Origin: Isoetes taiwanensis
Taxonomy: Eukaryota; Streptophyta; Lycopodiopsida; Isoetales; Isoetaceae
Reading direction: 5' to 3'
Length of the DNA stretch: 64,000 nucleotides
NCBI GenBank assembly: GCA_021234155.1
Contig: JAJEKV010000059.1
Coordinates: forward strand, 8,934,779 to 8,998,778
In this document: in pieces, positions 18,628 to 64,000 of the stretch
How positions within the stretch are numbered: position 1 is the first letter of the stretch
How the letters are laid out: the number at the start of each line of letters is the position of its first letter
Made by a program: the position numbers and the translations under genes
The notes under the pieces: generated by a model
Told to the model about the DNA's origin: nothing
Seen by the model: the letters and a program-made list of their open reading frames with translations, nothing else
Databases searched by the model: none

Positions 18628-18629
18628 AT

Positions 18630-23107: not shown

Positions 23108-23129
23108 TATATATATATATATATACAAG

Positions 23130-23560
23130 TTTTTGTACTTTAAATGGGTCTATGAACTATGGTTTACAAAATATGGGAACAAAATCCAAGATTAAGAATG
23201 GCAGGAATGGCAGTATGCATCTAGTCCAAAGTCTTGAAGTTTTAAGCTAAACCCTTTGCCTGATGGCCATTCAATGGAGCTCATCATTGTTTATTAGAAG
23301 GGAGACTTGCAATTAGATTTCATCTGATGACTCCACGATGACGAAGCAAACTTTGACTATAATCCTATTGGGTACAACTTTATTCGGCGAGCATCCATTC
23401 TTGGTGAAGGGTGTTCCCACTTTTTTCAACGTGTAGGGTGTCTTTGGCTCAGCGAAGTTAAATTGCATCTCCTCTAACAATGAGCATAGATATTTGGTGA
23501 ACAGTTTACATGCATCCACACACCTCATTGACAAACAAACTCTTTGATAAATATTTTGTT
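23130..23560 (-). repeat. Shared right subterminal region of E4
   Basis: Read on the minus strand this ends with AAACCATAGTTCATAGACCC and then the right terminus. The same order occurs at 37720-37770 (E5) and 55210-55260 (E7). A block around 23440-23520 aligns with 37255-37345. It probably holds sites used in transposition, by analogy with Helitron ends. Confidence 0.6.
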
Positions 23561-24016
23561 CCGCTTATCAGCTTCATTTATTTTCTTATTCTTGATGCGT
23601 ATCCAATTTTATTAGAGGCAAATTCAAAAGTGGTATGAAATGTACAAACAAAAAGCTTGTCCTTGAGTACTGGGTGAATTAGTTTCGGCTTTCTTAGGAA
23701 CACTCGATGTTAGACATTGCTGTATAGGTATACACTATTTGTAGTTGAAAGGTGCATTTTGTACTATGAACTATAGTTTACGAACATTTGGGAATAAAAT
23801 CTTCTGCCTACATTGACATGCATTGTAGGGCCCCAAAATAGCATGTCTTGCAATTTTGCCAATGCTCTAATCCTTTGCTTTATGATTACTCTACCATTGG
23901 TTATGCTTTTGATACCTCAAGCTCTTCCATATACCAACAATTCAATCCTCCCCTCATCTACCATGTCGTGTTCATCTCGAGATGGTGGTCCCATTAGACA
24001 TGCTTTTAATACACTC

Positions 24017-24138
24017 TTAGCCCCAATGAACGGTGGCAATAACTATAACGGTCCTAAGGTAACGAAATTCTTTGCCGGTATGAAAGGCGTGACAATCTGG
24101 GCATTGTCTCAGCGAGAGTCTCGGTGATATACACATGC
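24017..24138 (+). rRNA. Organelle-type large-subunit rRNA fragment
   Basis: Contains the near-universal LSU rRNA block AACTATAACGGTCCTAAGGT followed by AACGAAATTC. It is preceded by AGCCCCAATGAACGG and followed by GAAAGGCGTGACAATCTGGG and GAGAGTCTCGGTGA. This matches the helix 69-71 region of bacterial-type 23S rRNA. About 20 bases are missing after TTTGCCGG, and there are several substitutions. It is an old piece of plastid or mitochondrial rDNA in the nucleus, inside E4, and not a working gene. Plastid is my guess; I cannot separate the two by eye. Confidence 0.85.
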
Positions 24139-24611
24139 CATATTAGCACAAATGAAGCAACAAGTACAGTATCCATATGTCTATCAATTGAATTGATTTT
24201 TAACATTCATGGCGACCAAAAGTCTATCCGACATGTAAGAGCATAACCAACATCCGACAATTACGAACACAAATGTCAACATTCAATTTGTGAGAACGTA
24301 CTTTGAAATGTAACACATAAGGCCATAAACATCCTAACACGAGGCAATAGGCAAAAATTGCAAAGGAAAATGCCAATTAATACAATAGACATGAGCTAAG
24401 CCATTAGGCAAAAATTGCAAAGGAAGACATCAATTAATACAATAGACATGAGCTCTAGCTTCAAAATGACTTTTGTTGACGAGTCAACGTAGGTGGATAG
24501 ACACCTACGACAATCAACAATCTTATCTCTTAGAGAGAAACTTGCACCATAACAGCTACACAAACTCGTGTACTACCAAGAGAATCTAGAAAAAGGATCA
24601 TAAGTTGCTTC

Positions 24612-24713
24612 TATCCTCCATTTAAATGCATCTATTCGAGCTGCCCGATTTCCAAATTCATCGATCAAATTAATTGCTTTATCGTGGAGTTGTCTATCGA
24701 AATATACCTTGCG
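24612..24713 (-). pseudogene. Clp/HSP100 ATPase fragment (ClpC/ClpD-like)
   Basis: A short minus-strand stretch reads DRQLHDKAINLIDEFGNRA and then RIDAFKWR. This is the block after Walker B and sensor motifs in the first AAA domain of Clp ATPases (family form DRFLPDKAIDLIDEAGSR; ClpD adds RARIEAF). One extra Ala and a Pro-to-His change are seen. Only about 34 residues are present. Plant ClpC/ClpD are stromal chaperones. This piece is a captured, broken exon about 500 bases from the rRNA fragment. Confidence 0.7.
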
Positions 24714-24759
24714 CACAACTACCTTCTGCGCACAACTACACAACCGCATCAACAACTTC

Positions 24760-27700
24760 TCTTAGTGGTCCTACATTTATGATGGGCCTACAATTACTTA
24801 TAATTTTCTTTTCCTATTTTGCAAATGTATGGACATTAAAATTATCACTAGATGCAGAATGATTTGGTCAAAGTAAAAGAATTTAGTTGGGATTCCACAA
24901 GCTCCTTGCACTGCATATTCTAAAGGTAATATGTTATTGAAATGCCTTGCATATTCTAAAGGTAATATGTTATTGAAATGCGTACTGATCTACTTGGGGA
25001 TGTTAATAAAATCGTCACTCTATTCAAAACTACTAAATGGCATTCAAATATAGAGGCATAAAAGAGGAGAAAATATCCTTTTTCATATTAATCTAAATTA
25101 ACTAAACATCAAACCCCATGAGTGACTTGAAACTTGCACAATCCATCTCTTCTACAAAATGCTCGAGTTGTTATTAAAAAAAGAAAAGAAAAGGTACACA
25201 TGCAGAGGTTATGCAATTTGTACCAAAGGTCCCTTAGATCAAATGTTTCGCATTCAGAGCTAAGGTCCTGAATAGCTTTGAATAGCTTTAATACTTGTTC
25301 AAAACTTTAGTACGGACAACAAATGTCGCCACAAAGAATGGCACCTACGCATACAACATCCAAAAGTTCAAACAATGTCAAAATCTTGCCTTTGCAAAAG
25401 ACAAACTCATGCTTCACTTTTAGAAATAAAGGTGCAAGCAATAGTTCTTTTTAATTCTTTGCCTTCACAACTTGAAGGTATGCCATGCAACAGCTTGGCA
25501 AGATTTGTTGCAAGGAAACAGGTAATGAGGCTGTTCTTGCCTTCACATAGTTCCCTGCAACTAGTGAATGTGGCATTGGCCCTATGGGGCCAAGAGTAAG
25601 TAAGAACATCGGCTTCATCGTATTACCCTATGGTCAATAAGCTAAATTCATATTTCTGTGCATTCTCAATCACCTATGAAAATAGCACCAACGTAATAAA
25701 GTTTTGAAGTAAAACTGGTTGTCATTTAATCACTGTGCTGAAAGTGGCCAGTTCACAGACAATAAAAGAGGATCCACAAATAAATTTGCAAAACTATGGC
25801 AAAAGCCCAACTAGCTGGGATTTGAAAACACGACCTGCGCATGGCTATATTACTATACCATGTAGACTTGAACGTCTCAGGTAAGACTGAAGTGAATACA
25901 CAAAAAAGGCAACGCATATCAAGTACAAAGATCCATATTCAGAACAAAGATTTTTTATACACGCTGCCATGGCAGACCATTTGCAGATGGATATTGGATC
26001 TCACCTTTTCTTGTCTACGAATAAAGAGTTTGAATGCACATGCTCGCCCTCGCCCTCGGTGCATGATCCATCCTGAAAAGCTCCGTTGCCCAAAATAATG
26101 CAGAAAATCTTGCTTCATCCTCCACCTGTAACAATCAGGATTTTAGCTCCTCAATTTCAAGACTGCAACCCCCCCTTCCTTTAAATAATAAGGAACCTGT
26201 AAATACACAACAATTAACTTTTGAAATTGAAGGACTGCTCCACACGAATCCACTCTTACAAAAGGAATAAAATTGGCAGCATGGCAGATGCTCTTGCAGT
26301 TGTTAGCATTCCTTCATAATCACTAAATGTTTTACACAATTATGAATAAAGACTCTTAGTTAAGCATCTTCAAGGAAGAAAGATGCATAGACTACTTACC
26401 AGAGTTTCGCCATGGAGAGCTACTGATAAATAATTGTGTCTTCTCTAAATATTTACTCCTGAGGTAGATATCATCTGTATTTCCAGAATATCCATCACGT
26501 CCAGCAATGGCCAATGCTATTTCAGCTAGGCAAATGTGAGTACGTTACATCATTATAGCTCTATTACATGCAGAGGCTTCAATCTAGCCATCACCTGTTC
26601 GTGAAAGAAGAAAGAAGACTCTAAATAGAGAGCCTGAGCTCCAATATGCTCATCCAGAGACCATTAAGCAGCAGGAACCTGTTCTTGCAGAACCTTCAAC
26701 AGTACCATGCCCTGAAATTGTCATGTTTGTTCATTCCCTGCACAAACGAAATAGCCATTTTGAGACAGATAGAAATGGTGCATTACATCAAATAAATATG
26801 CGTCACAAATAAATAGCATCCCGGTTTCATTCGACAGAAAGCTGGATACTTCTATGCCAGAAGATGTTGTCACCGGGTTCATTTAAAATCACAGAAGAAA
26901 TGAGCACGTATAGTATATTTTGATACGCCAATGTTCAAAATTCCAGAACATAAACCATGTACTTTATATTCCTAATTATGACACTTGCAAAAGCAATATG
27001 GACTCAAATCACCTACCTCAGATGATAATTTCTGTAAGGCTTGCCTTCACCCAAAGTAAAGAATCTGCACATGTGACAAAGAGAGTGAAATTGCATGGCG
27101 TGTTTTCAAAAATGCAGTCAATTGTAAAGATAGTAGCAAAATCATTTCATATGAAACTAAACCAAGCCTATAATTCAAACGTGAAGACGATAACAATGCA
27201 CACCACACACACATTAGAATTCTTAACTACTGGATGAGATTAACTAGAAAGACTACCTTGGCTGGTGTCAAATAATAAGGTTAGATGTGTCCCTTCAGCA
27301 TCCTACATGGTTCCTCATATTGTGTCTCTCAATTTCTGATTCGCTATTTTGCAGCAGAGGTTCACATACATAAGATTCTGCTTGACGAACAGTGTTCCAA
27401 TTATGAATCATCCATCACAAGCATAGTAACTGAGGTATCACCACAACCCTTCTCCAAAACCCAATTTTGCAATCTTCAAGGACATCATTACATGAAAACC
27501 AAAACAAATTCACAACATTACCATACTACTTTGCTGCGCAGCCACGGAACAGGGTTGCCTTTGGAAGCTCCCTCAATTATTCTTCTACTTTGGGAGTAAA
27601 ATAAATGGATCATCTCAAGGATACATACATATATATCTGTTATATCGCCTCATTTGTATAGGGACCAAATGAACTAATGCATTGATGAGTCATATTCAAC

Positions 27701-29700
27701 CTTTGAGAACAATTAGAGAAAGCAAGGCATCTCTAGACAAGGTACACTTCTTCCTTAATAGGCTCGTTGTATTTGGGTTTTGATGTTGCTGTAGATACAG
27801 ATCAGACAGAAGGTACCACTTGAAAATATGGCAGATAAAAGCATGAAGATAAAATCCATATCAAAATGAAGGCATTCAAAAAATGGTTCAACAATGCATA
27901 CCTATGCTGCTCAGGACCGCAAAAGCCCTCTATCATTCATGTTCTTGCCATTGATGAAGGAACTAGCCTTTTCGAGAAGGATTGCCAGCTACACGTTAAG
28001 AAACGAAAGAAATAAAGAGAAATAAATTGTTGTGATCATAATGCACAAAGAACAAAAAATATCTTTTTGCTACATGGGTGGACTGATCCTTTTCAAATCA
28101 AGGTCAAATGCAGCTTTGCATCCCTGTAGACAACAACACAGCCTTTAACAAACATGATCCCAGGTCTAAAATAGGACCACAAAACTGAGCTACAGGGTAA
28201 AGTTATTTGCTATTATTGGGTATGCTTTCTATGTTTCACGCAAGTCAGATCAGGGCCTTGGATCACCTTTAACTAATACAAATTGACCGCAAGAACTTAG
28301 GGTTGATCTACTAGCCCAGGAAAATAAGCATTCGCTTCTAAATCCTGGAGTAGTTGAATGCCGGATCAATGCTAAAACGTAGCCCGAGAAGAGATTGGAT
28401 GCAAAAATCGAGCAACACTTTCTATTGGATAACTTCAAGGGAAGTGAACAAACCTGAAGGGTATGTTGATAAGGGGCAGTGTCAAAAAAACCAGCCATGA
28501 CCAGACTAGTGTAGCTACACTGTTCTGCCCTACAAAAATGACCAAGCACACAAAGTTAATAAAGAGGATCAAACATCTTGGCTCAGAAAACAACCACTCA
28601 GTCACAAGAGCATGAACATCAGATGCATTGCCAATGTTAGAGCTCAAGCAGTTTCAAATTGCCATCTCTTCTGCAGCAATCGCACATTGAAAGGGATCCT
28701 ACTTGACATACAACATGCCCACAATGGCAAGCAAGATCACAAGCAGCACAAACATATAAGATCTGGAAAAGGTGAATCCAGCCACACAAGGATCCACTGG
28801 AGTAAGCGTCTGCTGCAACATTGCTGGCATCCAGTTATTAGAACCGCCATATAAGCAAATGTAAAAAAAAGATTGGAATCGATGCCGATCAGAATGTGTG
28901 TCCGTGCGGTTGGAGCCAACTCAAAGAACCGGCATCGTCCCGCCATTTCTAAGCTTCTATAAAATATCCGCCATGTCTGGCCTCCCGATTTAAACAGGCC
29001 TCAAGTTTTGCAAAAACACAAAAGGCATAAAGCCTAGCTTCACATGCCTGAGATACATTTGCCATGTTGGCATGAGGACAAAAAGGCCAAACCTGCAGCC
29101 ATATTGGGCTTGCCCACCAAGCTTAATGGAAGCTCTAAAATTAAGTCTAAGTACGTACCAGCAAAAGGTATGTCATATATGCATCAAGAAGAGCAACACA
29201 CTGCAGCGGATGTATAGAATGACCACCAATTAAATTATCGTCCTTCTAACATCAAACATACTCTATTTCTTGTAAGTAAAACCATCGGGCACACGCCCTT
29301 GAGACTACAGTTACAGAAAATGCTCGATAAAGCCAAAACATAAAGTCATTTTTTGTAAACATACATGGCAAGACCAAGCAATTACTCTCATCAATCTAAA
29401 ACTTCAATTGCGTTACTCATCTTAACCAGAACAGAAGGACATAGAGACCATAACCATTTCCTCTGCATGTGATGTTGAATAGACATGTAAGTTGGTTTCC
29501 TATAGACTAGATTACAGAAAGAGGGCTTTTCCTTTTTTAGACATTATCTGAAGTCCAGCCTCTCTGTAATAAGATTTGAAGCTGTAAAACAGAGTTAAAT
29601 GCCTAGTTAAATGCACTACTTAAGTTCCCTAGTGTGGAAATGCCCTGGTTAAATGAATAAGTACAGCAGTAACGTAAGCCCATTGCTCTAGACATTGAAG
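24760..29700. other. Intron-like DNA of E4, no named gene
   Basis: AT-rich DNA with scattered exon-like pieces on the minus strand. Examples are 28453-28531 (acceptor TTTTTGTAG, donor GTTTGTTC) and 28730-28860, whose reading has a hydrophobic run SYMFVLLVILLAIVGMLYVK before a stop, like a C-terminal membrane anchor. A piece at 26040-26125 reads VEDEARFSALFWATELFR. I cannot assign any of these. They are probably remains of captured genes. Confidence 0.4.
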
Positions 29701-29714
29701 AGTGCAGATGCCAT

Positions 29715-29905
29715 TGCTATTACTATCACTATATGCAACAGGGAAGAAATATGGATGCTCGTACTCTAATCTATTGGGGTCTGTCGCAGAAAATGTTGTA
29801 AGAGGTACCTAATAGCTCCTGCCATGTGAGCTATGAAGTGAGAGACCACAGATGCCTGGTGCCCTACGATGGCCACAATTTGTTCATTCACTAGCTCCAT
29901 AGCTG
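29715..29905 (-). pseudogene. Glutamate-receptor-like (GLR) ligand-domain fragment
   Basis: On the minus strand the piece reads AMELVNEQIVAIVGHQASVV, then SHFIAHMAGA. After a one-base frame loss it continues VPLTTFSATDPNRLEYEHPY. This is the start of the receptor-family ligand-binding (amino-terminal) domain of plant glutamate-receptor-like channels, whose usual form is VAIIGPQSSVVAHVISHVAN and LLSFAATDPTL. The Gly-Pro of the motif is Gly-His here. An acceptor-like GGGCAG lies just before it. About 65 residues of roughly 900 remain, so it is a captured fragment without channel function. Confidence 0.85.
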
Positions 29906-30916
29906 CCCAAAAAAGGCATAGATATACTTTCACCTTAAAGCCTCAAATGAAAGTGATAGTTTGAGTAGATTCACCTGCAGCACTGTCCTAGAAGCTTGAA
30001 CTCAAAGGTTCGTCTTCTAATAGCTGGGAAATTTTAGCAGATGATCAGCCTGAAGAAAATAAGAAAAAGACCATTCTCATAAATTCAACCCAAGGAAGTT
30101 CTAGCAGCTTGTGACAAAGAAAATAAGCACAGCTCATGCATTACGGCTAGAAGAGGGAAAAAGCCTTCATATCCTAGCTTGTGTAAGGCTGCTTTCTCCA
30201 ACTGCCTGACATGCTCCCTTGAGTAGCCACATCTGGATTATTAAAATGTTTCTTCTCAAAATGGTTGCAAACCAAATTTAAACATCGACCCTACTTCCCA
30301 CTATATCTCAGCTCGAGTATTTCCTGCTCCCTTGACTCAAGTTTTGTCTTCATAGGGCTGTTCAGCTCCTCTTGGGAAAAGACAATATGAAATGTCTGCA
30401 ATTTTGGATATTGATGAAGCTCAAAACTCCACAAAGCCTTTCTCAGCCATTATCCAGGGCTGCATTTCAATATTTGGATCTGCTAGAAACTGTGGCAGAA
30501 AAAAAAGTTGACAAAATTGTATTAGCCCTCCATAAGCAAAGGAATCCGAGTTCTATTTAACATAGCAAAAGTGTGAGACCTAAAGCAGATAATACTATCC
30601 AGATCATGATTCAGAGAATGAAATAATATACAAAGGTGGATCTATGCATGAAATTGATAGAACTGTTCATTTAGCAAGCATGGATACGCTGGAGCCATAA
30701 AGAATCATATCAAAATGGGCCACAAAGGATTAATACAGCTAATAACTCAGAATGTTGGAAGCATATTTATTTGCCATCAATGGCAGAACTGTGAGTGGAA
30801 CATGCTGGCTTAATGCTCAAAAATATAGCAGTTGAATGGGAGGTCTCCATACATCATTATGCTAGACAAGTCCCATGCACAATATTAATGCAAAAGCAGA
30901 TTTATTACGTTGCAGT

Positions 30917-30977
30917 AACCATGAGTCATGGCAGTCTAAATGTAGTAACCATGAGTCATGGCAGTCTAAATGTAGTA
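30917..30977. repeat. 31-bp direct tandem repeat
   Basis: GTAACCATGAGTCATGGCAG plus TCTAAATGTA occurs twice in a row inside E4. Confidence 0.9.
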
Positions 30978-31311
30978 CGAGACTCGAAAACAATCAGACT
31001 CTATCTTAGACATTCAGCAAAAAACTACATGTCTCTCATATGATAGAGGAAGAATACGTAAGGCAAAAATAAATCGAGAGAGATTATCATAAATAGAGAG
31101 AGAGTATCATAAGCTAAGCTATTACTACTAGATTTTACGATAAAGCAGCGCATAGCGCATCTTGCTACAGCAATGATTTAGAAGATGCAATCTGTGTATT
31201 GAACCCCTTTAACCCAGAAGCTCACCTAATCTATTTAGTAGAAATTAAAGCAACCTGATCACCAGAGGCAGCAAAACTAAATTACAGAGATGCATAACAG
31301 CAAACCTGATA

Positions 31312-31430
31312 AGCTTGGACGTCACTATAGTCAGACCATTCATGAGTGTTGATTCCTGAAGTATTGATGCTTGAGAGAAAATCCATAGTAGAAATTGCTT
31401 GGGCTTCATATACTGCCACTTCCCTGCAAA
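31312..31430 (-). pseudogene. Exon-like fragment, unknown protein
   Basis: Minus strand: acceptor TTTTCATTTGCAG, about 118 bases open in one frame (contains EAQAISTMDFLSSINTSGIN and THEWSDYSDVQAYQ), then donor GTTTGC. Well-formed splice borders suggest a captured exon. I do not recognise the family. A second exon-like piece with acceptor CTGCCACAG lies at about 30400-30478 (reads FLADPNIEMQPWIMAEKGF). Confidence 0.35.
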
Positions 31431-32279
31431 TGAAAAACGGAGCTGAGGCTATCAAAAACAAATGCAAACGATAAAATACAGACCCAAAAACACATGGGTA
31501 AGCTTGCAACAATGCTCTGGGTGCTTTGGCATAATTCGAATCAAAGGTAGATGGTAGCGATCACCAAATCCCTGCGGACTTTATGATCCCCGCCGGACGT
31601 TACACCGGACTACAACAAATGCCGCCCTTCTTCTTGAAGCGTAACCGAGTGGTGCCCAACAATTTCGAACAAAAATTTAGTACCCACGATCCCGAGAACT
31701 AGATCACCGCCAAAACCTAGCCATAGATAACACTTAAAAGGCACAGAATGAAGCTTCGGTCAAGGCCCGAACCGAAAAACACAAAGCGTAAAGAAACCGT
31801 GGCGAAAGCTAAAGAAATGCGAAATCTGGCGGCAGATTATTCATCCGAGATGGCCATTAATCTCCACCCGAGTAAAAGGAAAACCCAAATCGCCCCAATC
31901 CACATTGCTTGCAAGCCCACGGAGGAAAAAAAAGGCGAGTCGATCGCCCCCGCTCCTCTACCGGACATTGTGTGAAGAACAAAGAATGGCTCCAAGTATT
32001 TCAAAAATGCATATGAAATCATCCGATTACTACAATAAGAAGCTCGAATTTAACAGAGCAAGCCAAAAACTTCAAAGAGTGAAGAAAGCACTTTCGAAAC
32101 CCCGATCAAACAACGGGGAATAAATCGTATTTGGCTTGCCATGCCGGGGCTTGAAATGTCAAGATGCATCCGGCATTAGATAGCCCTTGAAGAATTGATT
32201 GTAGAAGCTTGGCTATGGCGGGTGATACACGTTATTCTAAAAGCTTTAACAATTGCCCGCTCGGAGTTACCAAAATTAA

Positions 32280-32840
32280 ATGCCATCGGACCTATCATCG
32301 AGGAATGCCCGAACCATTGACCCAAAATGACCCAAAATTAAATTCATAGAATGAATTTAGAAGAAATAAAAGGAAAAAATAACATGTCCGACGGCCTCGA
32401 TCAAAACCCCCAAATTAAATACCCAAATCCAACGGCATATATCAGAAGCCCCAAATAGATTTAAATTCTTAAATCTAACGGTCTAGAACAAAAGCCCCAA
32501 ATAAAGGGGCTTTAAATCTGGGCCGTCGATCTCGCACATTCGACGGCCCAAAAGGCGACACCTCAATCTCTACCAAAAGGGGGCAAGCCACAAAAATTGA
32601 ATTGGGGCTTTTGTTGTGGGCCGTTCATCTCAGAGATGGACGGCCCAGATCAATCTCTACCAAAATTTTGGTACACCAATAAGAGGGATGCTTGGGGAGT
32701 TACGAGGTGGCACCGTCTGGACCGTCCATCTTTGAGATGGACGGCCGAGATCAATCTCTACCAACATTTTGTGGCATCAATCTCTACACCATTTGTGGCG
32801 CTGCCAACATTTGTGGCACCCAATATAATTGTATATATAT
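32280..32840 (-). repeat. Left terminal region of E4 with GACGG hairpins
   Basis: Contains several inverted repeats of the type CCGTCCATCT ... AGATGGACGG (32622-32646 and 32717-32743) with CAGATCAATCTCTACCA after them, plus repeats of GGGGCTTT with a nearby AACGG. The reverse complement aligns over hundreds of bases with 45400-45900 of E7, including TTATTTCTTCTAAATTCATT and TTTAATTTTGG. This is the conserved left domain of the element family. Confidence 0.65.
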
Positions 32841-32888
32841 AAGGATATATATATATATATATATATATATCATAATATATATACAATA
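32829..32888. repeat. (TA)n junction between left ends of E4 and E5
   Basis: AATTGTATATATATAAGG, about 40 bases of TA repeats, then CATAATATATATACAATAAC. The two halves are inverted copies of the same left end, so E4 and E5 lie head to head. Confidence 0.85.
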
Positions 32889-33351
32889 ACTTAAGCTGCC
32901 CCCTTGTCCATAAACATCTTGATCTCGACCGTCGATCGTGAAATCGACGGTTCTCATAGAGCCACCACGTTATTCCCCAAGCACCCCCCCTTATATATAA
33001 GCCACTGAGGTGTTGCCGTCTCGGTCGTCCAAATTCGAGATCGACGGCTTAGATCAAAAGCCCCTTTATTTAGGGGTTTAAATCTAGGCCGTTGAATGTG
33101 ATGGATCGATGGCTGAAATTTAGCCACGCATATGAAATACAATAAATGCTTTATGATGAGATGGACTAAAAGTTAATGGCCTCTTATGACGTGGCACGAA
33201 GATTTTGCTTCTGCATTTTTTTAAGACACTTTCGGGGTTCTGCTCACGAGTTTTTTCTGGGCGCTAGTATGGCCGGCTGTGTGATTTATTGGCGCTCATG
33301 CCGGCATGTTATCGATCTTCCACACCGAAGTTGGATTCGAAAAACTGAAGT

Positions 33352-33579
33352 TTGAATCTAAGAGGGTGCTTTGGAGCCGATTTGGAGAAACCCCAGAGCA
33401 TTTTATGTTGCGCAGTTGCGGTTGCGGTTGCGACTATGGCAGATTTGGGTGATGGCGGAGCTGTTAAACTGGCGGCATGGCAAAGCTTTGCATTCAGTTT
33501 GCATATACAGGCCCTGGTCTGGAAACATTTGGTCTATTCTAAATCTATTCTACTTTTAGTTATTTTTACTTTTATCTAG
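33352..33579 (+). other. Possible captured first exon, unknown
   Basis: After a run of CGGTTGCGGTTGCG there is ATGGCAGATTTGGGTGATGG and a frame that stays open to about 33577. The higher G+C content and Ala/Gly-rich start resemble a plant 5' exon. No family is recognised and no other exon could be joined to it. Confidence 0.2.
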
Positions 33580-34712
33580 CGACGAAAATGCGTTTGAATT
33601 CGGGAAGTCCATCACAGAGTCATTGCTTTGAGCATGGAGGATACACATGCATTCGTTTCCAAAATTTATAGTAAAATCCAGGTAAGGTAACAGAGATTAA
33701 ATGGCTGTTGTTTGCATGGCACGAGCAGAGCATTTGTTTGCAACACGGATAGACAGTCCATGTTTACAATAGCATAGCTCTAAGGGGATGTTTACATGTT
33801 TTTTTTGTTGCCGTTTGCTTTAGATCTGTTGGGGTTCTGTGAGCGGTTTCATCATTTCCAACTAGCTTTGTCAGCGTTATAGTACGAGGTCTTTGGTACG
33901 ACTGTCCAGGCACAGATTTGCAGGGATAATGCAACAGGTATTTTATAAGTTAAGAATGGTTGTTTTTATGAAACGGCAACTTAAACTTGTGTTGCAGGTG
34001 ATTAATTGCCGAGGGCTCTTGGTTGATGCATGTTTTTATGCATGAAGAACCACAAACAGACTGTGCTTGTTGATGGGGACTTGCTCTGCGACCATTTTGA
34101 GAAGGAAGGAGGATGCTGCCTGTGTTAAATCAGGCCAATATGCCTGTGGGCTCTGTGCCAAAACCTGTGCCATAAAATTAGGTTTATAGGGATGAGTAAA
34201 CCGCTGCCCAATAGTGCCCTTTGCTCTACTGGTTTCGGTTTGATTGGCTACTCATTCATGAAGATCCTGAGCATTTGTTAAGATTGTTGTGATTGATCTT
34301 CTGTATTTAACCATGCTTTGTTGGATATAGTTTGTATTACCTCCTTTGATCAGGTTTTCGGATATAGCTTCTGTAAGTATTTGTATTTACTTTTATTCCT
34401 GGATCATACTGCGCTTGATTTTAGATATTATTACTTGCAACAACAATGCAATTGAGGAAGCATGAGCCGCATAACCTATGTAAGGATCCACTATTTTCCA
34501 GCTATGATACTGATTGTTGCCAAATGTATTCCTATTATCTAGATTTATTACTAAGCTTTATGCTGGATATTATGCTGTAAATGATCATGGCTTTACTTGG
34601 GCATAAAAATCACTTAACGATCTGTCTACTTTCATGGCATTGTACGTGAGATAAATGTAAATGCATGTTGTGGTTTCCATTGCACTTTTTTAACTGGTAC
34701 TTGTCTGTACAG

Positions 34713-37785: not shown

Positions 37786-37861
37786 TATTATTTAGGGCCT
37801 ACACATTTGGAGAAGGTTGTGACAAAAATGTGTGAAAAATACCCGACAAAATACACCCAGT

Positions 37862-45285: not shown

Positions 45286-45299
45286 ATATATATATATAC

Positions 45300-51124: not shown

Positions 51125-51221
51125 TAATAATGAGGATTACAGTTTATCCATATATCTGTGCTCATTTCATGTGTGTATTAATGGATTTTGTTGGATATAT
51201 GTTGGATAATTGTGTTGTTGA

Positions 51222-54250: not shown

Positions 54251-54402
54251 GCGCACATAACTCAAATGGCATGCAAATAGGAGAAAAGACTACATTATAT
54301 TTGCATACCAATTGTCTACACAGGATGCGCACATAACCCAAATGGCATGCAAATAGGAGAAAAGACTACATTATATTTGCATACCAATTGTCTACACAGG
54401 AC
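54251..54402. repeat. 76-bp tandem repeat in E7
   Basis: GCGCACATAACTCAAATGGC to TTGTCTACACAGGAT occurs at 54251 and 54327 with one C/T change, so a very recent duplication. Confidence 0.95.
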
Positions 54403-54689
54403 ATGTGGGCACCTTTCACAGACATGTACACCTTAAACAAGTGGGCACTCACAGACATGGCCGCCCAATGTATCTTGACCATACACAATTTTGATGGCAT
54501 TAATATTGAAGAGGAAGCGTGGGAAAAAGGGAGAATGTGTCAATTGTGTTTTCACAAGCAAAGAAGGTGAACTAGACATATGATATTATACAAAAGATCA
54601 TACATTTTACTATATGCAAGGATACTCAAATACATTTTTTTTTGCCTTTAAAGGATGGTTGTGTGCTTGAGATAATCAAACATTTAAGT

Positions 54690-55251
54690 GGCAATGTTTA
54701 GTGGATTACTATATTTGCTATCGAACATTTAATTCGACTTGAATAATTACAATTTTGAGATTTACCTATGATTATTTATTGTAGATTGTTAACCAATAGA
54801 CAACTATATGTTAAGTGAAAGACTATGAAACTTATATGAAACTTTATGGCAATGTTGATTGATTCGACTTCCACTATGATATTGGCTTATCCTAACTTAA
54901 TTCTTGACACTCAATTTTAAATATTGACCTGTTTAAGCTTGAACTCAGCTTCCTTGCTAAGATCTTATTGTAAATTTCTCATACATAAATTTCGATCATA
55001 AATGACCAAATGACTTGATAGACCATCATAAAGTCTACGAACTTATATGAAACTTTATGACTATATGTTAGGAGAAAAACGACAAAGTTATTGAAACTAT
55101 GTGGCAATGTTGACTGATCTAACTTCCATTATGATGACTTCTAATTTAATTTTTGACACTCAACTTTAAATATTGATCATTTTTAAGCTTAGATTTTAGT
55201 CCCATATCTTCATAAACCATAGCCGAGAGACCCATTGATAGTACAAAAACT

Positions 55252-55260
<9 letters not shown>
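54690..55260 (+). repeat. Right subterminal domain of E7
   Basis: Blocks of TTCGACTTGAA, CTTCCACTATGAT or CTTCCATTATGAT, GACACTCAA(T/C)TTTAAATATT and TTTAAGCTT appear twice (54830-54945 and 55085-55195). The last one leads to TAGATTTTAGTCCCATATCT, AAACCATAG and the terminus. E5 has the same order at 37600-37765. Confidence 0.65.

Positions 55261-55330
<70 letters not shown>
55254..55330. repeat. (TA)n junction between right ends of E7 and E8
   Basis: About 77 bases of perfect TA, flanked by AGTACAAAAACTTG and its inverted copy CAAGTTTTTGTACT. The junction is a long palindrome formed by two right ends tail to tail. Confidence 0.95.
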
Positions 55331-55333
<3 letters not shown>

Positions 55334-57930
55334 AGTTTTTGTACTATGAGTAGTTGCATTATGAGCGGTTGTACCATGAATGATATTAGGCAGGACCCAA
55401 CAGTCACACAACAAAGCAATGTTAGGGTGGTGAGTACTAAGACCAAATAGAATTAGACAACCTCTTTACACAAAGTAAGACCAAATAGTATCAAGCTACA
55501 ATAATCAGTAAATGAACTACTGCACTATTCATAAGGTTAACTTAAAGAGGCCCTTTAAACAAATTTATTGGTGAGCACGTCATTTTTCCCTTAGATTCTC
55601 CAAGATTCCATCTAAATTGCCATAGATTCTTAGAGATTTTATGACGATTCTCCTAGATTTCCCAAGATTTTATGAAGATTCTCTTAAATTCTCTAAGATT
55701 CCATCAAGATTCTTCCAGGTTCTCAAAGATTCTAGAAAGATTTCCTTAGACTCTCCTATATTCCCAAAGATTCTTTTAGATACTCCTAGATTCCCTTAGA
55801 TTCCTTGAGATTCCCTTAGATTCCTCTAGATTTTACTAAGATTTCCCAAGTGACCCAAGATTTCTTCTAGATTAGCATAGATTCTTAAAGGTTTTATGAA
55901 GAATCCTGTAGATTTTTCTAGATTCCCAAAGATTCTTTTGAGATTCTCGAAGATTCTCCAAAGAGTTAACTAGATGCCAAAAGAATACCCCAGGATTCCT
56001 CTAGATTCTCCAAGATTCTATGAAGTTTCTCCTAGATTCTTTGAGATTCTTCAAGATTCCATCAAGATTGTTCTTAATTCTCAAAGATTTTAGGAAGATT
56101 CCCCTAGATTTTCAAAGAAATGCTTGAGATTACTATAGATTGCCTTGGACTAACCCTAGATTTTATTAAGATTCCCATAGATTCTTAAGGATTTTATGAC
56201 AATTTCCTTATATTCTCCTATATTTCCATAGATTCTCTTAAGATTCTTTAAGATTCCCAAAGATTATCCCATGATTCCTCTAGGTTCCCCAAGATTCTAT
56301 GAAGATTCTTCTACATTCCCTAAGATTCTATGAAGATTCTCTTAGATTCTCTAAGATTCCATTAGATTCTCAGAAATATTAGGAAGATCCCCTAGATTCC
56401 ATTGCATTCTCAAAGATTCTCTATTGAACCATGTAGATTCTCTTAGATTTCCCGAGATTCTATAAAGACTTCGATAGAATCCTTAAGATTCTCTTGAGAT
56501 CCATGTAGATTGTCTAAGATCCTATGAAGAATCCCCTACATTTTCCAAAATTGCACCAAGATTCCTGTAGATACCCTTAGATTTCCCCTTAGATTCCTTA
56601 AGATTCTACAAAGATTCCCCTAGATTCTTAAGATTATATGGAGATTCCCTTAGATTCTCCAAGATTCTATCTAAATTCCCATAGATTCTTAAAGATTTTA
56701 TGACAATTTCCATAGATTCTCTTAAGACTCCCTAAGTTTCCCCTAGATTCCCAAAGATTATCCCATGATTCCTCTAGGTTCCCTAAGAATCTATGAAGAT
56801 TCTTTTACATTCTCTAAGATTCCATCAAGATTCCCCTAGATTCTCAAAAATTTCAGAAAGATTCCTAAAGCTCAAATTCTCTCAAAGCTTAGTTTCTCGT
56901 AGATTCCTAAAGATTCTCTTAAATTCTTAAAGTTCTACAAAGATTACCTAGATTCTTAAGATTCTACATCCCCTAGATTTTATTAAGATTTTCCCAGATT
57001 CTCCAAAATTCCATCTAGATTCTCATAGATTCTTAAATTTTAAAAAGATTCCTTTAGATTCCAAAAGAATACCCCAAGATTCCTCTAGATTCTCCAACAT
57101 TCTATGAAGATTCTCCTAAATTCTTCTAGATTCTCCAAGATTCCATCAAGATTACTTGAAATTCTCAAAGATTTTAGGAATATATTCCCCTAGATTTCCA
57201 AAGAATCGCTTGAGATTCCTCTAGTTCCCATAGATTCTATGAAGATTCCCGTAGACCCCAAGATTCCTTCGAGTTTCCTCCAGGATCTTATAGATTTTAT
57301 CAAGATTCCCTTACATTCCCTTACATTCTCAAAGATGCTCTCTTGAGATTCCCATAGATTCTCTAAGATTCTCATGAGATTCCTCTGGATTTTCTAAGAT
57401 CCTATAAAGATTCTCCTAGATTCTCTCAACTTGCCATTGATTCCTTAGAACGCAAAGATTCCCAAAAGATTCTTAGTATTCGATGATGTTGGCCCCAACT
57501 GCGAGAAAATAGTGACAAAGCACCACTCATTGGAAAGCTCTCGATAAGAGCAATCCAACGGCGTGGGCCCCACCTTCATCCGATCCCTCTACTGCAAGCT
57601 ACATGCCTTTGAAGGCGATTAAGCAAATAGAAGCTTCTTAGAATGTCCACTCATAAATGCCTTGACACCTCACTACTTTTTTTTATTAATGAGGGTGCCA
57701 CCTCACCTCCTTTAAAAAAAACAAATTTAATATTAAAAAGTTAATGGCTAGGATTTATGCTCACCTTTTGATCTAACGGTTAAGATCTGCTACACCAAAT
57801 ATTGCTGCCACCTCATCATGTTCCAATACTTTGAGGTGTCATCGCCTGGACCGTCTATCTCAGATCTGGACGGCTCACACGGCGACACCTCAAAGTACTG
57901 GAACAAGGGGGGTGCTTATATAATTGTATA
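55325..57930 (-). mobile_element. E8: non-autonomous element with both ends of E7 and an AGATTC array
   Basis: Right end (inverted) ACAAGTTTTTGTACTATGAG at 55331. Left end, read on the minus strand, is TATATATACAATTATATAAG followed by CACCCCCCTTG at 57930. Both match E7. Inside are a minisatellite (55585-57475) and the E2-type tail (TTCGATGATGTTGGC, GAAGCTTCTTAG, TTTTTATTAATGAGGG, GATCTAACGGTTAAGATC). This links the AGATTC elements to the Rep-helicase element. No coding sequence. Confidence 0.75.
55585..57475. repeat. AGATTC minisatellite, E8 block
   Basis: About 1.9 kb of the same 10/11-base pattern. Its unit order does not follow that of the E2 or E6 blocks by eye, so the array has diverged or expanded independently. 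Confidence 0.9.
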
Positions 57931-57933
57931 TAT

Positions 57934-57999
<66 letters not shown>

Positions 58000-58018
58000 A
58001 GATATCTATTATATATAT
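57925..58018. repeat. (TA)n junction between left ends of E8 and E9
   Basis: AATTGTATATA, about 70 bases of TA with one AATA slip and one GAGATATCTATT break, then TATATATACAATTATATT. Left ends head to head, as at 32829-32888. Confidence 0.9.
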
Positions 58019-58739
58019 ACAATTATATTATGGGTCCTATGGGGGTGAAAGTAGGTAGAGATTATTCCCTGCCGCCGATTTTTTTGAGGTGTCGCCACAA
58101 TAGCCGCTGGATTTGATGGGGGCATGCATGGGGCATGCATGGGGCATGCACCCCATCCTCGGGCCGTCCGACGGACACGTGAGAAATCGTGGCCCTTGAT
58201 TTTAAGGTTAAGGAAGGTGCAAGGAAGTTGCCGAAAACTTGATCTCTACGGCCCATCTCTCGAGATGGACCGGTCCGCATCTGCGACACTTCAATCAACC
58301 CCCAAGCGACCCCCTTTATTTGGGGCTTTGATGTGGGCCATAGATCTAGGGATTCAATTGGGGCATTTTATGTAGACCGGGCCCATCCTTGAAATTAGGG
58401 CATTTTCCTTTAACAAAAAAAAAAAAAAAAGGGCATTTTATATTTAATGTTTATTAAATATTGATGTTTATTGAATATTGATGTCTATGTCGGGCCGGAT
58501 GTTGCAAAAAAAATTAATGGTACTCTTTTGAACCATAGCGGGGAGGCTTCAAAAACTTCTGCCATTTTTTTCCCTTCTGGCGATGACAATGGCGGAGTCC
58601 ACGAACTGTTGAATCCAGTGAACAAACATGGGATGTTTGTGTCGCTACAACATCCCCAGCATGCCGGATTGCGGAAAGCGCTTTGCATGGCATATCTTTG
58701 GTTATAAAATTTTTGGAGTTTCATGGTTCCACTAAAGGA

Positions 58740-58870
58740 GGGCTGCATGGCATCGCTTCCTCCTATGACCCAGATCTCTTTTCCATGAATAACAGTTGCT
58801 GTATGGTAAGCACAGGGTGCAAATGGGGCATGGCGTTGTAGCTGCTTCCACTGTAGCTGCTTCCAATCGA
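58740..58870 (-). pseudogene. Kelch-repeat fragment
   Basis: Minus strand reads CAYHTATVIHGKEIWVIGGS, the core of one Kelch blade (His-Ser/Thr-Ala then x-V/I-x-G then IYVFGG in the family), preceded by WKQLQRHAPFAP. A Gly-Gly pair and the hydrophobic strand are kept. An 18-base repeat (TGTAGCTGCTTCCA) is seen at 58841-58866. The surrounding 216-codon frame shows no second blade. A captured exon in the opposite orientation to its neighbours. Confidence 0.65.
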
Positions 58871-58883
58871 TGCAGCTCCTAGC

Positions 58884-59225
58884 ACGAAAACAAATCCGGC
58901 AGTGGTGATGTTGAATGGGGCTTCCGGCGATGACCAGGATGCAGACGAGCCCCCTAGAAAAAGAAGATACCATTGCTATACTCCCAGACAGATCCAAGAG
59001 ATGGAAATGTGAGATTTCTGCCTTTCTTCTGTAAATATTCCTTCCTGCATCTGGGTTTAAGCTCTGTTTCAAGAATTTTTTATGGGTTGATCGGTGCATT
59101 TTTGGGTTTTCAGGGTTTGCAAGGAATGCCAACATGCGGATATAAACAGTGGCAGCAGCTTAGCAAGGATTTGGGCCTTCCGGGTTTGCCACTCAAGTTT
59201 TGGTTTCAAAAATCGAGGAACCTAG
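58884..59225 (+). pseudogene. HD-Zip class IV homeodomain fragment
   Basis: First part reads ENKSGSGDVE, then after a one-base shift GASGDDQDADEPPRKRRRYH and TPRQIQEMEM, with donor GTGAGA at 59009. After an intron (acceptor TTTTCAG, 59113) it continues KECQHAD and, after another shift, WQQLSKDLGL and KFWFQKSRN. This matches the acidic leader and homeodomain of plant HD-Zip IV (GL2/PDF2-type) regulators: RYHRHTxxQIQEME, KECPHPD, QLSKxLGL, KFWFQNRRT. The invariant Asn of helix 3 is Lys here. No leucine zipper or START domain follows. Inactive captured fragment. Confidence 0.9.
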
Positions 59226-59229
59226 ATGA

Positions 59230-60187
59230 AGGTCTTGATTAATGGCTTAAGTACCGGAATGCAACATTTTCCTTTTCTTTCCATGACATGAGTTTAACCC
59301 CAAGAGTTTCTTTGCCGCAAATCTGCTTAAACCAAGTAAAATCTTTGCTGGATTGAAGGACCTAATGCATTGTCGGACTGTAACCATCATATTCAGACAT
59401 GTTTTCTTAGACTGATTCTGTTTCCTGCATATTTTACAATCTCCAATGGATATTTTAACATGGTCGCTTTGGTTATTGAACTCTGTCATTTGAATGGTCA
59501 GCTGATTGCAGAGTAAAACCAGCTTTGTTGTTAAGGCAAGCAAAGGAAATATTTTTTGACCAGGCATCTAGCTTCGTAGAGTAGGGCCTCTGTTTTGTTT
59601 CGTTGCCCTGGTTCCAATGGCGTATGTTTCCTCTGGCCGATCTTCTGTCCTATATAGTTTTGCTCGCTTTGTGGATCGGGGCTGTAAGTTAGAAATGTGC
59701 TACTGCAGTGATCAGTTGTCTATTTTAGCATTCAGGATTTCATGGATATCGGGGCTTTTTCTGAAGCGTATATTGTTTGCCAACAGAAATTCGAGATTGC
59801 TGGCCTTGAAATTCGAGAGGACATCTTCATAATTGTAAGTAGGCTTGGTTTTGGTTTTCGTAAAAGTTTACTTCCAAACTAAGAGCAACGGACTCTATAA
59901 ATCTAGCTACTTGAAAGGATAGATCTAATTGCTTGATATTATCCAATCTTTGATTCGATGTGCTAGTTAAGGTATTTTAAGATGACTCATTAGGTCTCAA
60001 AGTGCAGTTATGGGAGCTAATGCAGCTGGATGCACCTCCAATGCTCGTATTACAGCTACTACATCGAATGGCTGGCATTTCATCTGTTTTGTCATTGTTG
60101 TAAGTAATAGAGCAATCTGATTGCATCTTTAATTTTTGTTATAGTTCCTTCTTATTAGGTCTAGTTGTGACTGTCCTCAATGTGCAG
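59230..60187. other. E9 spacer, no recognised gene
   Basis: AT-rich DNA between the HD-Zip and AP-1 mu pieces. Small frames (59617-59832 on +, 59247-59567 on -) match nothing I know. Confidence 0.5.
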
Positions 60188-60820
60188 TATGAGCTCCTTG
60201 ATGAAATGATGTATTTTGGCTATCTCCAGTATATGGAGGCAAAAATTCTTAGTGAATTTATAAAGACAGATGCTTATCGGATGGAGGTCAACAGATGTCC
60301 ACCAATGGCCGTTACTAATGCAGTCTGCTGGCGTAGCGAGGGGATTCGTTATAAAAAGAACGAGGTTTGTTATTTGATTCTTGCAAGTTGTAGTACTGCC
60401 TTTTACTTTACATCTGTCAATATTTTTGGATTTGAAAGTGTCAATATTCTCGTCAATAGCAGTGGTTAGCTTGTGCGCTCGGATTTTGTTGGTGCGTTGA
60501 AGATGCAGACTTATTTAAGGTGCATATATTAAATGTTATAAGTTGGTTGAAATATGTTGCCATTCAAACTGTTGTTTATCATGGTTAGTGGTATGCCAGA
60601 GTGCAAGCTGGGCCTTAATGACAGAGTACTATTAGAAGCTCAAGGGCGAGCTACAAAAGGAAAAGCAATTGATCTTGATGACATAAAGTTTCACCAGTAA
60701 GTAGCATTTTAAAACTTGATTGTACTATCTTACAACTTGATTATATACATCGTTCAAATATTCTAACGTGGGTTAACAGGTGTATCGTACAATATCTTTT
60801 ATTCCTCCTGACGGAGCCAT
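60188..60820 (+). pseudogene. AP1M: AP-1 complex mu subunit (mu-adaptin) exons, fragment
   Basis: Four exon pieces with introns. 60188-60364 reads YELLDEMMYFGYLQYMEAKI, then EFIKTDAYRMEV and PPMAVTNAV and WRSEGIRYKKNE. 60428-60519 reads ESVNILVNSSG, then a TAG in place of Gln, then LVRSDFVGALKMQTYL. 60588-60696 reads GMPECKLGLNDRVLLEAQGR. 60780-60820 holds RTISFIPPDG out of frame after a deletion. They follow the order of the plant AP-1 mu chain, which selects cargo in clathrin coats at the trans-Golgi. The stop and deletion make it a pseudogene. It covers only the linker and the start of the C-terminal domain. Confidence 0.92.
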
Positions 60821-61268
60821 AATCTGTGCCAAAGAGATGCGATATTGCATTTATTGAAAGTGGTTTCTTCTGCGCTCCTGCCATAGCCACATCCCAGTCA
60901 TGTTTGATGATGGGGTGACTTTGGTGTGCTCTCAAAGATGATATCGCTAGAGGAAAGGGCATGCAGTTGGGTCTATTGACCAGCATTGGCTATTTGTCCT
61001 AATCAGTTGGACTTCTTACAACTAATGCAGGATGTGCAGCATTCTTTTGTGCTTTTACGGTACATGCTCTCCCATGTATTTATTATCTTATATCTACATA
61101 TTTAGAATGCTTCTTTCTGCATTACGCATCCAACATGCATTTGCTAGCATGCTAGAGTGATTGAATATCAACAAGAATACGATAAATTTAAATGGAAATT
61201 AAAGGGAAATAACGATCTATGCTCTAGATATCTTAATGCTCTGGCCATCTTAACCTTGTCTGCTACAG

Positions 61269-62239
61269 GTTATAGTAGTTCCACTACTTAAGGATCTCGC
61301 ATTCCAAGGATCACATGGTTTTCAGCTATTGTAGCACTCATTGGCATCGGGCTTCTAGAATTTAGTAGACCCCCCGCTTTGGTAAAATATTGAAAACTCA
61401 CAACAATGAAGAGCAGATCATTGAACAGTTTTGCTGATGTATTTATCTTAATTTAAATTTGTGACAGATTGGTGACATCTGGAATCTTATTAGTGCTGTT
61501 TCCTTTGGTTTTCACATGCTACGTTCAGAGCATATTTCTCGAGCACTTCCTTCAGCCAGTATCTTACCTTTACTTAGTATTCAGGTCAGTAGTGGCAAGT
61601 GAATAACTAAAGGTTGGGAGGGGCAGTAAAATCTTCTTCTCTTGAACTAATCTATTCTAGCTACTACCTTGCAGCTTTTTGTTACGACATTGTGCTCTAC
61701 CATTTGGTCATTTTGCAGTCATATTAATCAAGTGTCTGCAATGGATGTGCTTGGATGGCAAGGCATATCATCATGGCAGCCAATATCATTTGTTCCCTGC
61801 ATATTAATGCTGTATACAGGCTGCTTTCAACAGCGTTCTGGTTATGGGTTGAGGTAGATCTATTTTTTAGAATTAAGTTTTAATGCACAAATCAACAATG
61901 AGCAATCCCTTGAATTGCAGTTTGTAGCTCTACGGAGCATGTCATCATCTGAAGCAGTTATAATCTACACCCTTGAACCTCTTTGGGGTGCTGGGTTTGC
62001 TTGGTTCTTTATTGCAGAGAAATGGGGTGCTTTGGAATGGATAGGAGCATTGTTTATTTTGGGTACATGTAAGTTGTATGTACATTATACCTCCGTATTG
62101 TTCATTTATTTTCGTTTCAGGTGGAAGCCTATCAATGCAGTTGTTTTCAGATGCTGAAGTGGAAAAGGCTGGTTCACCTTTGCCTATTTCTCTAAAACAA
62201 AAGGAAGGTTTTGAAAACCCAACACTAGAGATTCAGTAA
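61269..62239 (+). pseudogene. EamA/DMT-family transporter, 3' half, damaged
   Basis: Five exons with GT-AG introns: 61269-61381 (VIVVPLL, then PRITWFSAIVALIGIGLLEF), 61468-61584 (GDIWNLISAVSFGFHMLRSE), 61675-61853, 61921 to about 62061 (SEAVIIYTLEPLWGAGFAWF, EKWGALEWIGALFIL) and 62121-62239 (GSLSMQLFSDAEVEKAG to a stop). This is the second half of a plant drug/metabolite (10-TM) transporter of the EamA type; HMLRTEHISR and IYxLEPVWGAGFAW are familiar blocks of a plastid-predicted group. A deletion in the first exon shifts the frame, and one base is missing near 61830. The N-terminal half is absent, so it is not functional. Confidence 0.88.
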
Positions 62240-64000
62240 TACAATACTTGAAAGAAGGCTAAGCAATAATTCTAATGGTAGGCATGTTCTAAGTGACGGT
62301 GTTAAGCATATGGAAAAAGATATAATGAGCTAATTTCTTTCATTTTTATATATGGGGAAACAATCTAATAACCTTCCTTTGAGAAATTCATGTACTTCAG
62401 CTTCCATATTCCATCCACAAGCTAACATGGATGCAAGTTCCAAAATCACAGGGACATTTAAGATTTGACTGTTTTTAGTTGAGGCAAGTGGTGATAATCA
62501 CTGAATTGCTTATTTTGGGATTTGTATGCTTATCTCCTTCTGTGTAACAGGCAATGTTAAGGCAAGTGTAAAGTAGGTAGGGAGTGGAGGATGGCAGCGA
62601 ATTGTTGCAAGCATTTTGACTTGTTAGATGGTTTATCATTGTTTTGTGTGTGCTTCAATGTGTTTTATCTTGTTGGATTTAGTTGCCTCCTTATATATCA
62701 TAATGCAAAAATAGGTCTGTGGTGGTTGTCACCAAACACTTTACCGACTTAGAGACAGTGTGCATACTAAAATAGGCCTGACATGTGGTGGTAGATTGGA
62801 ATGTTCTCTCACTTTTGTCTTTAGACACCACTGCTCTCTTCTGCCCTGCGCTATCTTTGAAATGTGTTCAGGTACCATGTTGGCCAGGCTTTGTGGAGGT
62901 TCTCCATGAAGTGCTGGTCATTTGTGCTTGGTTCATCTTGCCTCTGTGTTGGCTTTTTGTATGCATTGGCTAGCTGGAGATACTTATAATTCTATCCTTA
63001 ATGTTGGAACTGGAATCACTGTGATTCCAACTCTGGATTTACCCAAAGACTGTGCGGTAAATGTTTTGATCCTGATCCTGATCTGCTCCTATATGGCATG
63101 CCATTTCGATTTGCATGGAATGGAGCAGAACCAAATCTGGGAGAGGATCAATAGATTAATAAGATACCGTAGGGGTCTATCTATGTTGGACTACAGCAAT
63201 GCAAAAGAGGGTAGAATAGTAGAGTTATTGGATTTACATAATGAGTTCAATGATTCGAAATGGTCAAGGAAACTAAGGCAATTTTGAATTCTTCCTTTTT
63301 AAATAGAACTCTATAGAAAAAGCTGCTAATTCAAGTTGACAAATGCACTTGTGCTGCCTATTGTAGGAAAGATTGAACTTGACTTGTCTAAATGGAACTC
63401 CATATGAAAATGTTTGCTATTAATTTTGACGTAATCAATCCGAGGATGAGTTAACCACGTGAATTTGCTTTTAACACTCCTTGATTATTTACTTAAAATT
63501 ATACACATTAGCAATGACTAATTATCCTTGTGTTCCCAAGTTTAAAAATTCTCTTTGGCAAGATCATCTCGTTTCATTTTGTTATTGGACGATATGAATA
63601 TTATGTGTGTTTGCATTGGCAAAGTCTAGTGATTTGTGAATGGATGTTGAAGATTGTCTTGATACTTTTCCAATACATCTAGGTGGTGCTAGTAACATGA
63701 AATTCAGAAGTTACAGTCTGCTTTATAAGACATGTGGTCTCAAATCAACTGATTAAGTTGTCTTAAGAGTTCATAATAGTTTCTATATTATTTTGGGAGG
63801 ACAAAAACATCTCAAATGAAATGCATGCTTCTTCCATTGAAGGATCCTAACTGTTTGGCTTAGACTTGAAAAAAATATAAAAGGAAAGACAAAAAAACCT
63901 CGACTTTAAGCTTGAAAAAAATAAAAGGAAAAACAAAAAAAAACCTCGACTTTAAGTTAAAAAGCTACCATGGGTGATAAGATCTGCACTTTTTGAATTT
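62240..64000. other. E9 distal part, no recognised gene
   Basis: A 121-codon frame at 62922-63287 (contains WERINRLIRYRRGLSMLDYS and LDLHNEFNDSKWSRKL) matches no family I know. The rest is intron-like or spacer DNA. Confidence 0.4.
63865..63955. repeat. 46-bp tandem repeat
   Basis: CTTGAAAAAAATATAAAAGG to ACCTCGACTTTAAG is repeated directly with small poly-A length changes. Confidence 0.9.

Follow-up and report, generated by a model that had tools for sequence, protein, structure and literature searches.

The stretch analysed here (the window, 64,000 nucleotides (nt) in full) lies at C1066:8934779-8998778 of the Isoetes taiwanensis genome assembly, which comprises 1.66 Gb in 1110 contigs; C numbers below denote contigs and L numbers individual loci. 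From 23108 to 64000 it holds a chain of mobile elements, E4 to E9, lying end to end, which by their sequence belong to the Helitron superfamily. Joints of the same kind recur across the genome, together with an oriented, base-precise class of joint inside the 5' ends of resident elements, which appears to be a more telling finding than the chain in TA runs. We favour, with fair but incomplete confidence, a reading in which these Helitrons insert between A and T, prefer TA runs and also use the 5' ends of resident elements as oriented targets.

A chain of elements in the window

We placed the elements and joints by TA tracts, their flanks and self-alignment (Table 1). The end-to-end chain is real, with some corrections to the sequence-only reading in which it was first described. 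Eight joints follow one another between 23108 and 64000: three left-left, two right-right, one left-right, E3|E4 and E6|E6'. Four left-left and right-right joints had been named earlier, and all are present (32846-32869, 37765-37776, 55254-55331 and 57927-58019), with perfect palindromic arms of 55 nt at the E7/E8 joint and of 13, 14 and 26 nt at the other three. Every junction had also been described as a (TA)n tract; seven of the eight do hold 2 to 78 nt of TA, and the exception is E6|E6', which meets at 42180/42181 with no TA space. The left neighbour of E4 is a TATATAT site within the 5.3-kb tandem-repeat unit E3, not an element end, and the TA tract at 57927-57997 belongs to E8's own left end. 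All seven pure TA runs of at least 16 nt in the window lie at element ends.

Table 1. Elements, joints and the RepHel gene, in window coordinates; positions beyond 64000 (extended positions) lie outside the window.
Feature	Position	Strand	Description
E1	7390..13314	-	Ends of the same kind; internal 2.6-kb tandem duplication
E3 tandem unit	cut at 23107		5.3-kb unit; unit 1 = GGCAAGTTTATATATTCTG from 17827
E4	23126..32845	-	9720 bp; right end CAAG at 23126; left end TCCTTATATATATACAATT to 32845
E4/E5 joint, left-left	32846..32869		24-nt TA run with two 5'-TC termini either side; reads AAGGA (to 32845)-(TA)12-TC (32870)
E5	32870..37764	+	4895 bp; left end TCATAATATATATACAATAACTT; right end GTACAAAAACTTG
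E5/E6 joint, right-right	37765..37776		(TA)6; CTTG (to 37764), CAAG (37777)
E6	37777..42180	-	Minisatellite AGATTCCC; right end 37777; left end TCATTATATATATAAAGAC to 42180
E6'	42181..43650	-	Partial E6 copy without right end; left end at 43650
E6'/E2'' joint, left-right (head-to-tail)	43651..43702		52-nt TA run
E2''	43703..45282	-	1580 bp; right end CAAG 43703; left end TCAGTTATATATATAAAGG to 45282
E2''/E7 joint, left-left	45283..45298		E7 side without TC block
E7	45299..55253	+	9955 bp; no RepHel match elsewhere in the window
RepHel open reading frame (P0001)	47285..51124	+	1279 amino acids stop to stop, intact
E7/E8 joint, right-right	55254..55331		78-nt pure TA run; CTTG (to 55253)-(TA)39-CAAG (55332)
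E8	55332..58002	-	2671 bp; left-end pad = TA run 57927-57997 within TCTCTTATATA...CAATT
E8/E9 joint, left-left	58003..58004		One TA between GA and TC (GA-TA-TC, 58001-58006)
E9	58005..64000	+	Left end TCTATTATATATATACAATTATATTATGGG; runs beyond the window, right end at extended position 65793

The surroundings of the chain are repetitive as well. E1 contains two 2.6-kb copies (8076-13302) that are 98.7% identical, and no TA run marks the point, 'CTTTAT', at which the second is joined. The right end of E9 meets a head-to-tail array of 4.8-kb units (extended positions 65835-84000, 94% alike), and this array and the one at 13326-23107 (L009, L010) consist of head-to-tail units of 4.8-5.3 kb without long open reading frames. 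These units start TA|TC(A/C)AA and finish with CCTTCCGGTTGGAGG, which is hairpin-like and has a T run; they are perhaps another Helitron-type family in true tandem. The AGATTCCC minisatellite, with periods of 10, 21 and 31 bp, forms long arrays in the non-coding elements (7360-7772, 9229-10105, 11844-12720, 37865-39820, 42177-43100, 43767-44665 and 55586-57480), comparable to the central repeats of HINE/DINE elements.

The RepHel gene and the element ends

The open reading frame of E7 carries an HUH motif from residue 399 (GLPHVH), a two-tyrosine motif from residue 513 and a Walker A motif from residue 854, and Pfam assigns it PF14214 (Helitron Rep, 3e-36) and PF05970 (PIF1-like helicase, 4e-50) with no match to an endonuclease family. 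Residues 198-1279 align to the bat Helraiser protein (E=1.1e-145), the H-x-H and both tyrosines are kept, and the end of the frame aligns with the Helraiser end. A RepHel protein with HUH, tyrosines and PIF1 helicase bears out the Helitron superfamily, in keeping with the earlier description of these elements as Helitron-like. At least 18 near-full-length relatives stand among the 48 matches listed from the genome (36 of 5460 candidates scored), and 12 of the 18, the window's own included, are free of stops. Outside E7 the protein matches nothing else in the window, and Pfam found no family above the cut-off in seven other open reading frames, a scan that left out the small frames of E4, E5, E6 and E9. 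One frame, at 1274-1846, has an integrase-core match below the cut-off (PF00665, E=0.0012) and is probably a retrotransposon remnant. Judging by their ends, E4 to E9 and their non-coding relatives would owe their movement to a RepHel protein like the one E7 encodes.

Left ends begin with a 5'-TC block, followed by the pad TATATATA and then CAATT or a related sequence; most start 5'-TC-xx-T(TA). For E4-type left ends we sampled 40 places (37 loci read, 36 with an end and L011 without), and for right ends another 40 (30 loci read, 29 outside the window, 27 of these intact). Because both samples are the best-scoring copies, 40 scored of 650 and 40 scored of 795 candidates, the shares of joined ends given below may not apply to every copy. 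Thirty-two of the 36 left ends read TCCTTATATATATACAATT (AAGGA past the pad), two carry a TCACT variant (AGTGA), and two (L019 and L044), both joined to another element, have no TC block. Blocks of other families include TCTATTA, TCTGTTA, TCTCTTA, TCAGTTA and TCACTCA, and TC is present on both arms in 26 of the 31 left-left joints found genome-wide. Right ends read GTACAAAAACTTG or a close variant, with TATA next in 26 of the 27 sampled, and the whole-genome count of GTACAAANACTTGTA is 1962, with 55 for its reversed control.

As judged from such alignments of ends, the termini read A|TC...CTTG|T. Minimal joints are GA-TA-TC and CTTG-TA-TC, that is, A|TC and CTTG|T; inside TA runs a target duplication is indiscernible. 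We rejected a left end starting at TACAA, since the 36 sampled copies are conserved further out, to 5'-TC, and likewise transposons with terminal inverted repeats (Mutator-like), since the ends differ beyond TACAA and E7 codes for RepHel. A TACAA/TTGTA stem overlaps the right terminus itself and appears in the predicted fold of four of nine right ends (E1, E4, E5 and E7). Hairpins are also predicted near several left ends, with a short one at the right, and by eye there is no clear asymmetric terminal inverted repeat beyond TACAA. Hairpins with GACGG stems near the left ends of E4, E5 and E8 (57850-57910, 32721-32750 and 32920-32960) are possible Rep or regulatory structures.

These elements share with canonical Helitrons, such as Helraiser of bats and those of plants, a RepHel protein with HUH, two tyrosines and PIF1 helicase, a 5'-TC, and A and T flanks. 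They differ in a 3' end of CTTG rather than CTRR, in a 5-bp hairpin that overlaps the very end whereas the canonical one lies some 10-12 nt inside, and in their strong association with TA runs and the TATATATA pad that their 5' ends contain. E6, E8 and E2'', short and non-coding with tandem repeats at their centre, recall the non-autonomous DINE-1/HINE Helentrons, which according to the excerpts at hand (PMC4067079) target TT, have subterminal inverted repeats and have a partner that carries an endonuclease domain; the joints here are A|T, not TT, and the E7 frame lacks such a domain match.

Two classes of joint across the genome

Joints were counted as exact patterns over the whole genome, each with a reversed control; ends, joint classes, spacing and orientation counts and stacks are all direct observations. 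In TA runs we found 43 right-right, 31 left-left and 104 right-left joints, with none in the controls; the numbers expected of these ends at random orientation are 51, 39 and 89. Joints in TA runs thus recur across the genome, and the earlier suggestion that new elements add to old ends is supported. The companion suggestion, that left ends meet left and right ends meet right in an ordered way, is not: with 74 inverted joints against 104 head-to-tail, orientation departs little from random, head-to-tail joints being slightly in excess (p 0.02-0.03). We therefore rejected that ordering as a general rule, and these counts make the alternation in the window one draw from near-random orientation.

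The samples of single ends also show how often elements meet. Twenty-one of the 27 intact right ends abut another element end (17 right-left, 4 right-right) and six abut other DNA; among the 36 E4-type left ends, 18 abut an element end (8 left-left, 10 left-right) and 18 something else. In these assignments L018 and L035 were called left-left by motif only, and L065 right-right by interior only. Among G-edged (TA)8 tracts, 1728 of 3398 (51%) are CTTG-edged, about 20 to 28 times the 1.8-2.5% expected (reversed controls for the CTTG-edged and G-edged patterns, 50 and 1251). Searching at an assumed length for the right ends of 13 E4-type elements recovered four (L125, L126, L129 and L130) and missed the other nine, and no left end was found upstream of the C1014 joint over 7.9 kb. 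One host repeat, ATATATGTTCTTATGTTT, has four insertions within it or close by (L022, L031, L039 and L058) and may represent a natural target family.

The second class of joint consists of 134 right ends fused head-to-tail to the pad and CAATT of another element that has no TC block (control, 0). Among the 100 of these listed, the spacing between right end and pad is 8 nt in 48, 10 nt in 48, 11-12 nt in four and 6 nt in none. The inverted counterpart, a left-left joint with one TC-less arm, makes up five of the 31 left-left joints, against the 134 head-to-tail; the power to see inverted TC-less joints was judged through the left-left pattern only. None of the 18 E4-type left ends that are not joined to another end lacks the TC block, so the block is normally part of the element; in this sample it is absent only where another element abuts. 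Chained partners belong to different families in C996 and C1057. This class, which the sequence-only reading had missed, sits inside the resident 5' end and not in a flanking TA tract.

TC blocks are frequently stacked at left ends (for example, TCCTTATCCTTATCACTCATATATATACAATT), and 14 of the 31 left-left joints, one place being counted twice, have at least one stacked arm. If a newcomer enters between the TC block and the pad of a resident, the resident's block would land outside the newcomer's. Five readable chains combine a stack with a TC-less neighbour. C143 has the stack TCTGTTA|TCACTCA and a TC-less neighbour of family AAGTGTACC; C914 has TCCTTA|TCACTCA, and TC-bearing relatives of its downstream element carry TCCTTA; the outer block of C11 and C652 is TCCTTA, as in TC-bearing relatives of their downstream elements; and in C1057 TCTCTTA is external to the TCCTTA blocks, in agreement with the order in which its two TC-less elements follow downstream. 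These few chains support the view that stacked blocks may be displaced resident blocks. Left ends that are not joined to another end can be stacked too, with two to about seven TC blocks (L026, L027, L030, L037, L045 and L025), some of the outer ones without a known downstream partner.

Proposed target choice and its alternatives

In the mechanism that we favour, new copies would enter between A and T by two modes. The first would use TA runs in nearly either orientation, yielding left-left, right-right and left-right joints with spacing down to one TA; it would cover most of the window plus the inverted joints. The second would use the A|T between the TC block and the TATATATA pad of a resident, at TCxxT(TA)|TATATATACAATT, in the resident's orientation. 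It would fuse the newcomer's right end to the resident's pad and displace the TC block of the resident to the left side of the newcomer, stacking it, and so would cover the TC-less class. The orientation would be locked because an HUH Rep would nick the origin strand of the resident and offer that same strand as acceptor. TA runs probably lengthen after insertion, as excerpts of the report on MuTAnT elements describe (PMC4486113); we infer this from the TATATAT site in the intact E3 unit, a run of 7 nt, and the 18-nt run beside E4. More tentatively, and with slightly more doubt than belief, we suggest that the replication origin of the resident, flanked by the 5' TC block and the pad, is a strand-specific target, and that the outer stack is an ordered record of the families inserted into.

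Several observations weigh against this account. One fixed A|T cut does not explain the 10-nt half of the TC-less joints, which would require an extra TA for which we found no place in the model, and we saw no empty allele. The counted places include duplicates (four in C949, two in C919, two alike in C1007 and one overlap in C1052), and at least three places are common to the right-left and TC-less lists. Two of the five block matches are weaker for the way in which relatives were chosen, copies L139-L143 and L144-L147 having been picked for their block: family AAGTGTACC carries TCTGTTA in L068 and TCCCTTA in L110, both met unselected, and L140 was fetched for TCTGTTA; family TTTGTGTG, the farther one in C1057, carries TCTCTTA in the unselected L115, and L144, L146 and L147 were fetched for it. 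TCCTT is also the commonest block, which weakens the TCCTTA matches. In C1057, C11 and C652 the blocks of the stack outnumber the TC-less joints that we saw downstream, and in C996 and C264 the inserted element has a single TC block although a TC-less joint follows downstream. Two further elements with two blocks have other joints at their right ends, TC-bearing right-left in L045 and right-right in L025. Across 66 of the 100 right-left places listed, namely those with a TC block on contigs that the listed TC-less joints cover, the association of stacks with a TC-less joint downstream is modest: within 15 kb, 4 of 16 versus 3 of 50 (p=0.053); within 12 kb, 3 of 16 versus 2 of 50 (p=0.087); and within 8 kb, 2 of 16 versus 1 of 50 (p=0.14). 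In the E4-type sample, a TC-less joint within 20 kb accompanies three of five stacks versus none of 10 single blocks (p=0.022, hand-scored among the matches listed).

The alternative that survives best, though we consider it unlikely, is plain insertion into TA microsatellites, in which tracts beside old copies are simply hit again with no recognition of resident 5' ends. It accommodates the TA found at nearly all sampled ends, the near-random orientation of the right-right, left-left and right-left joints, and the single insertions L013 and L014, each within a host TA tract and flanked by TA at either end. It does not yield 134 TC-less joints with spacing concentrated at 8 or 10 nt and never 6 among those listed, nor does it give their orientation bias or the displaced TC blocks.

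Rolling-circle read-through is a good deal less probable. Here head-to-tail chains would be multimers formed after failed termination at the right end, which suits the head-to-tail excess, the true tandem arrays next door (the 4.8-kb units at 65835-84000) and the pair of left ends in C264, both of one family. The joined left ends are of different families in C996, C1057, C11, C143 and C914, inverted joints cannot arise in this way and stacked blocks are not predicted; because chain partners differ, we rejected read-through tandems as the whole explanation.

TA tracts can be unstable, and unrelated element ends could in principle have been fused when fragile tracts broke and rejoined or when TA runs recombined. 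E4 splits an E3 unit whose right half was not found in the 61 kb from 23108 to 84000, as this process would allow; it would be expected to leave broad, random TA lengths, and with the TC-less joints sharply at 8 or 10 nt we regard it as very improbable, slightly more so than read-through. That the joints are false joins is least credible of all: long TA tracts can be difficult to assemble and the joints here come from an assembly, but about 300 were found by pattern, many have just 2-12 nt of TA and many lie on contigs several to tens of Mb long.

Chains of adjacent or tandem Helitrons are not in themselves new. Excerpts of the literature describe one case of different Helitrons directly adjacent in maize (PMC2267711) and tandem arrays in bat and silkworm, ascribed to termination bypass (PMC4067079); unlike here, neither a TA run nor a 5'-end site preference is described in those excerpts. 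Closest in idea is Fusarium FoHeli, a Helitron2-like element for which, in the part of the report at hand (PMC5148889), self-insertion is proposed to yield several 5' termini and inverted self-insertion is also discussed. The notion of several 5' termini corresponds to the stacked TC blocks here; the repeated FoHeli stretches, as given there, are few and span tens to less than 200 bp, whereas the blocks here are 6-7 nt, with a narrow insertion point and at least 134 TC-less joints. TA targeting has a parallel in the MuTAnT Mutator-like elements of Medicago, for which, in the excerpts of PMC4486113, TA microsatellites are safe havens and flanking TA runs exceed those of empty sites; those elements have terminal inverted repeats and a 9-nt target duplication, and the excerpts describe no end-to-end chains. 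In the open-licence literature we found no description of Helitrons that have TA runs, or a fixed position within their own 5' ends, as their target.

How Helitrons select their targets is poorly understood; in bacterial HUH transposons, the choice of target is tied to the HUH nick site. If the reading proposed here is true, these Helitrons would re-use their own 5' ends as oriented targets precise to the base, which would link the choice of target to the nick site in them as well and would provide a safe haven that spares genes. The chains would offer many natural joints for testing the position of the Rep cut, and the order of insertion within a chain would become readable from its stacked blocks in sequence alone.

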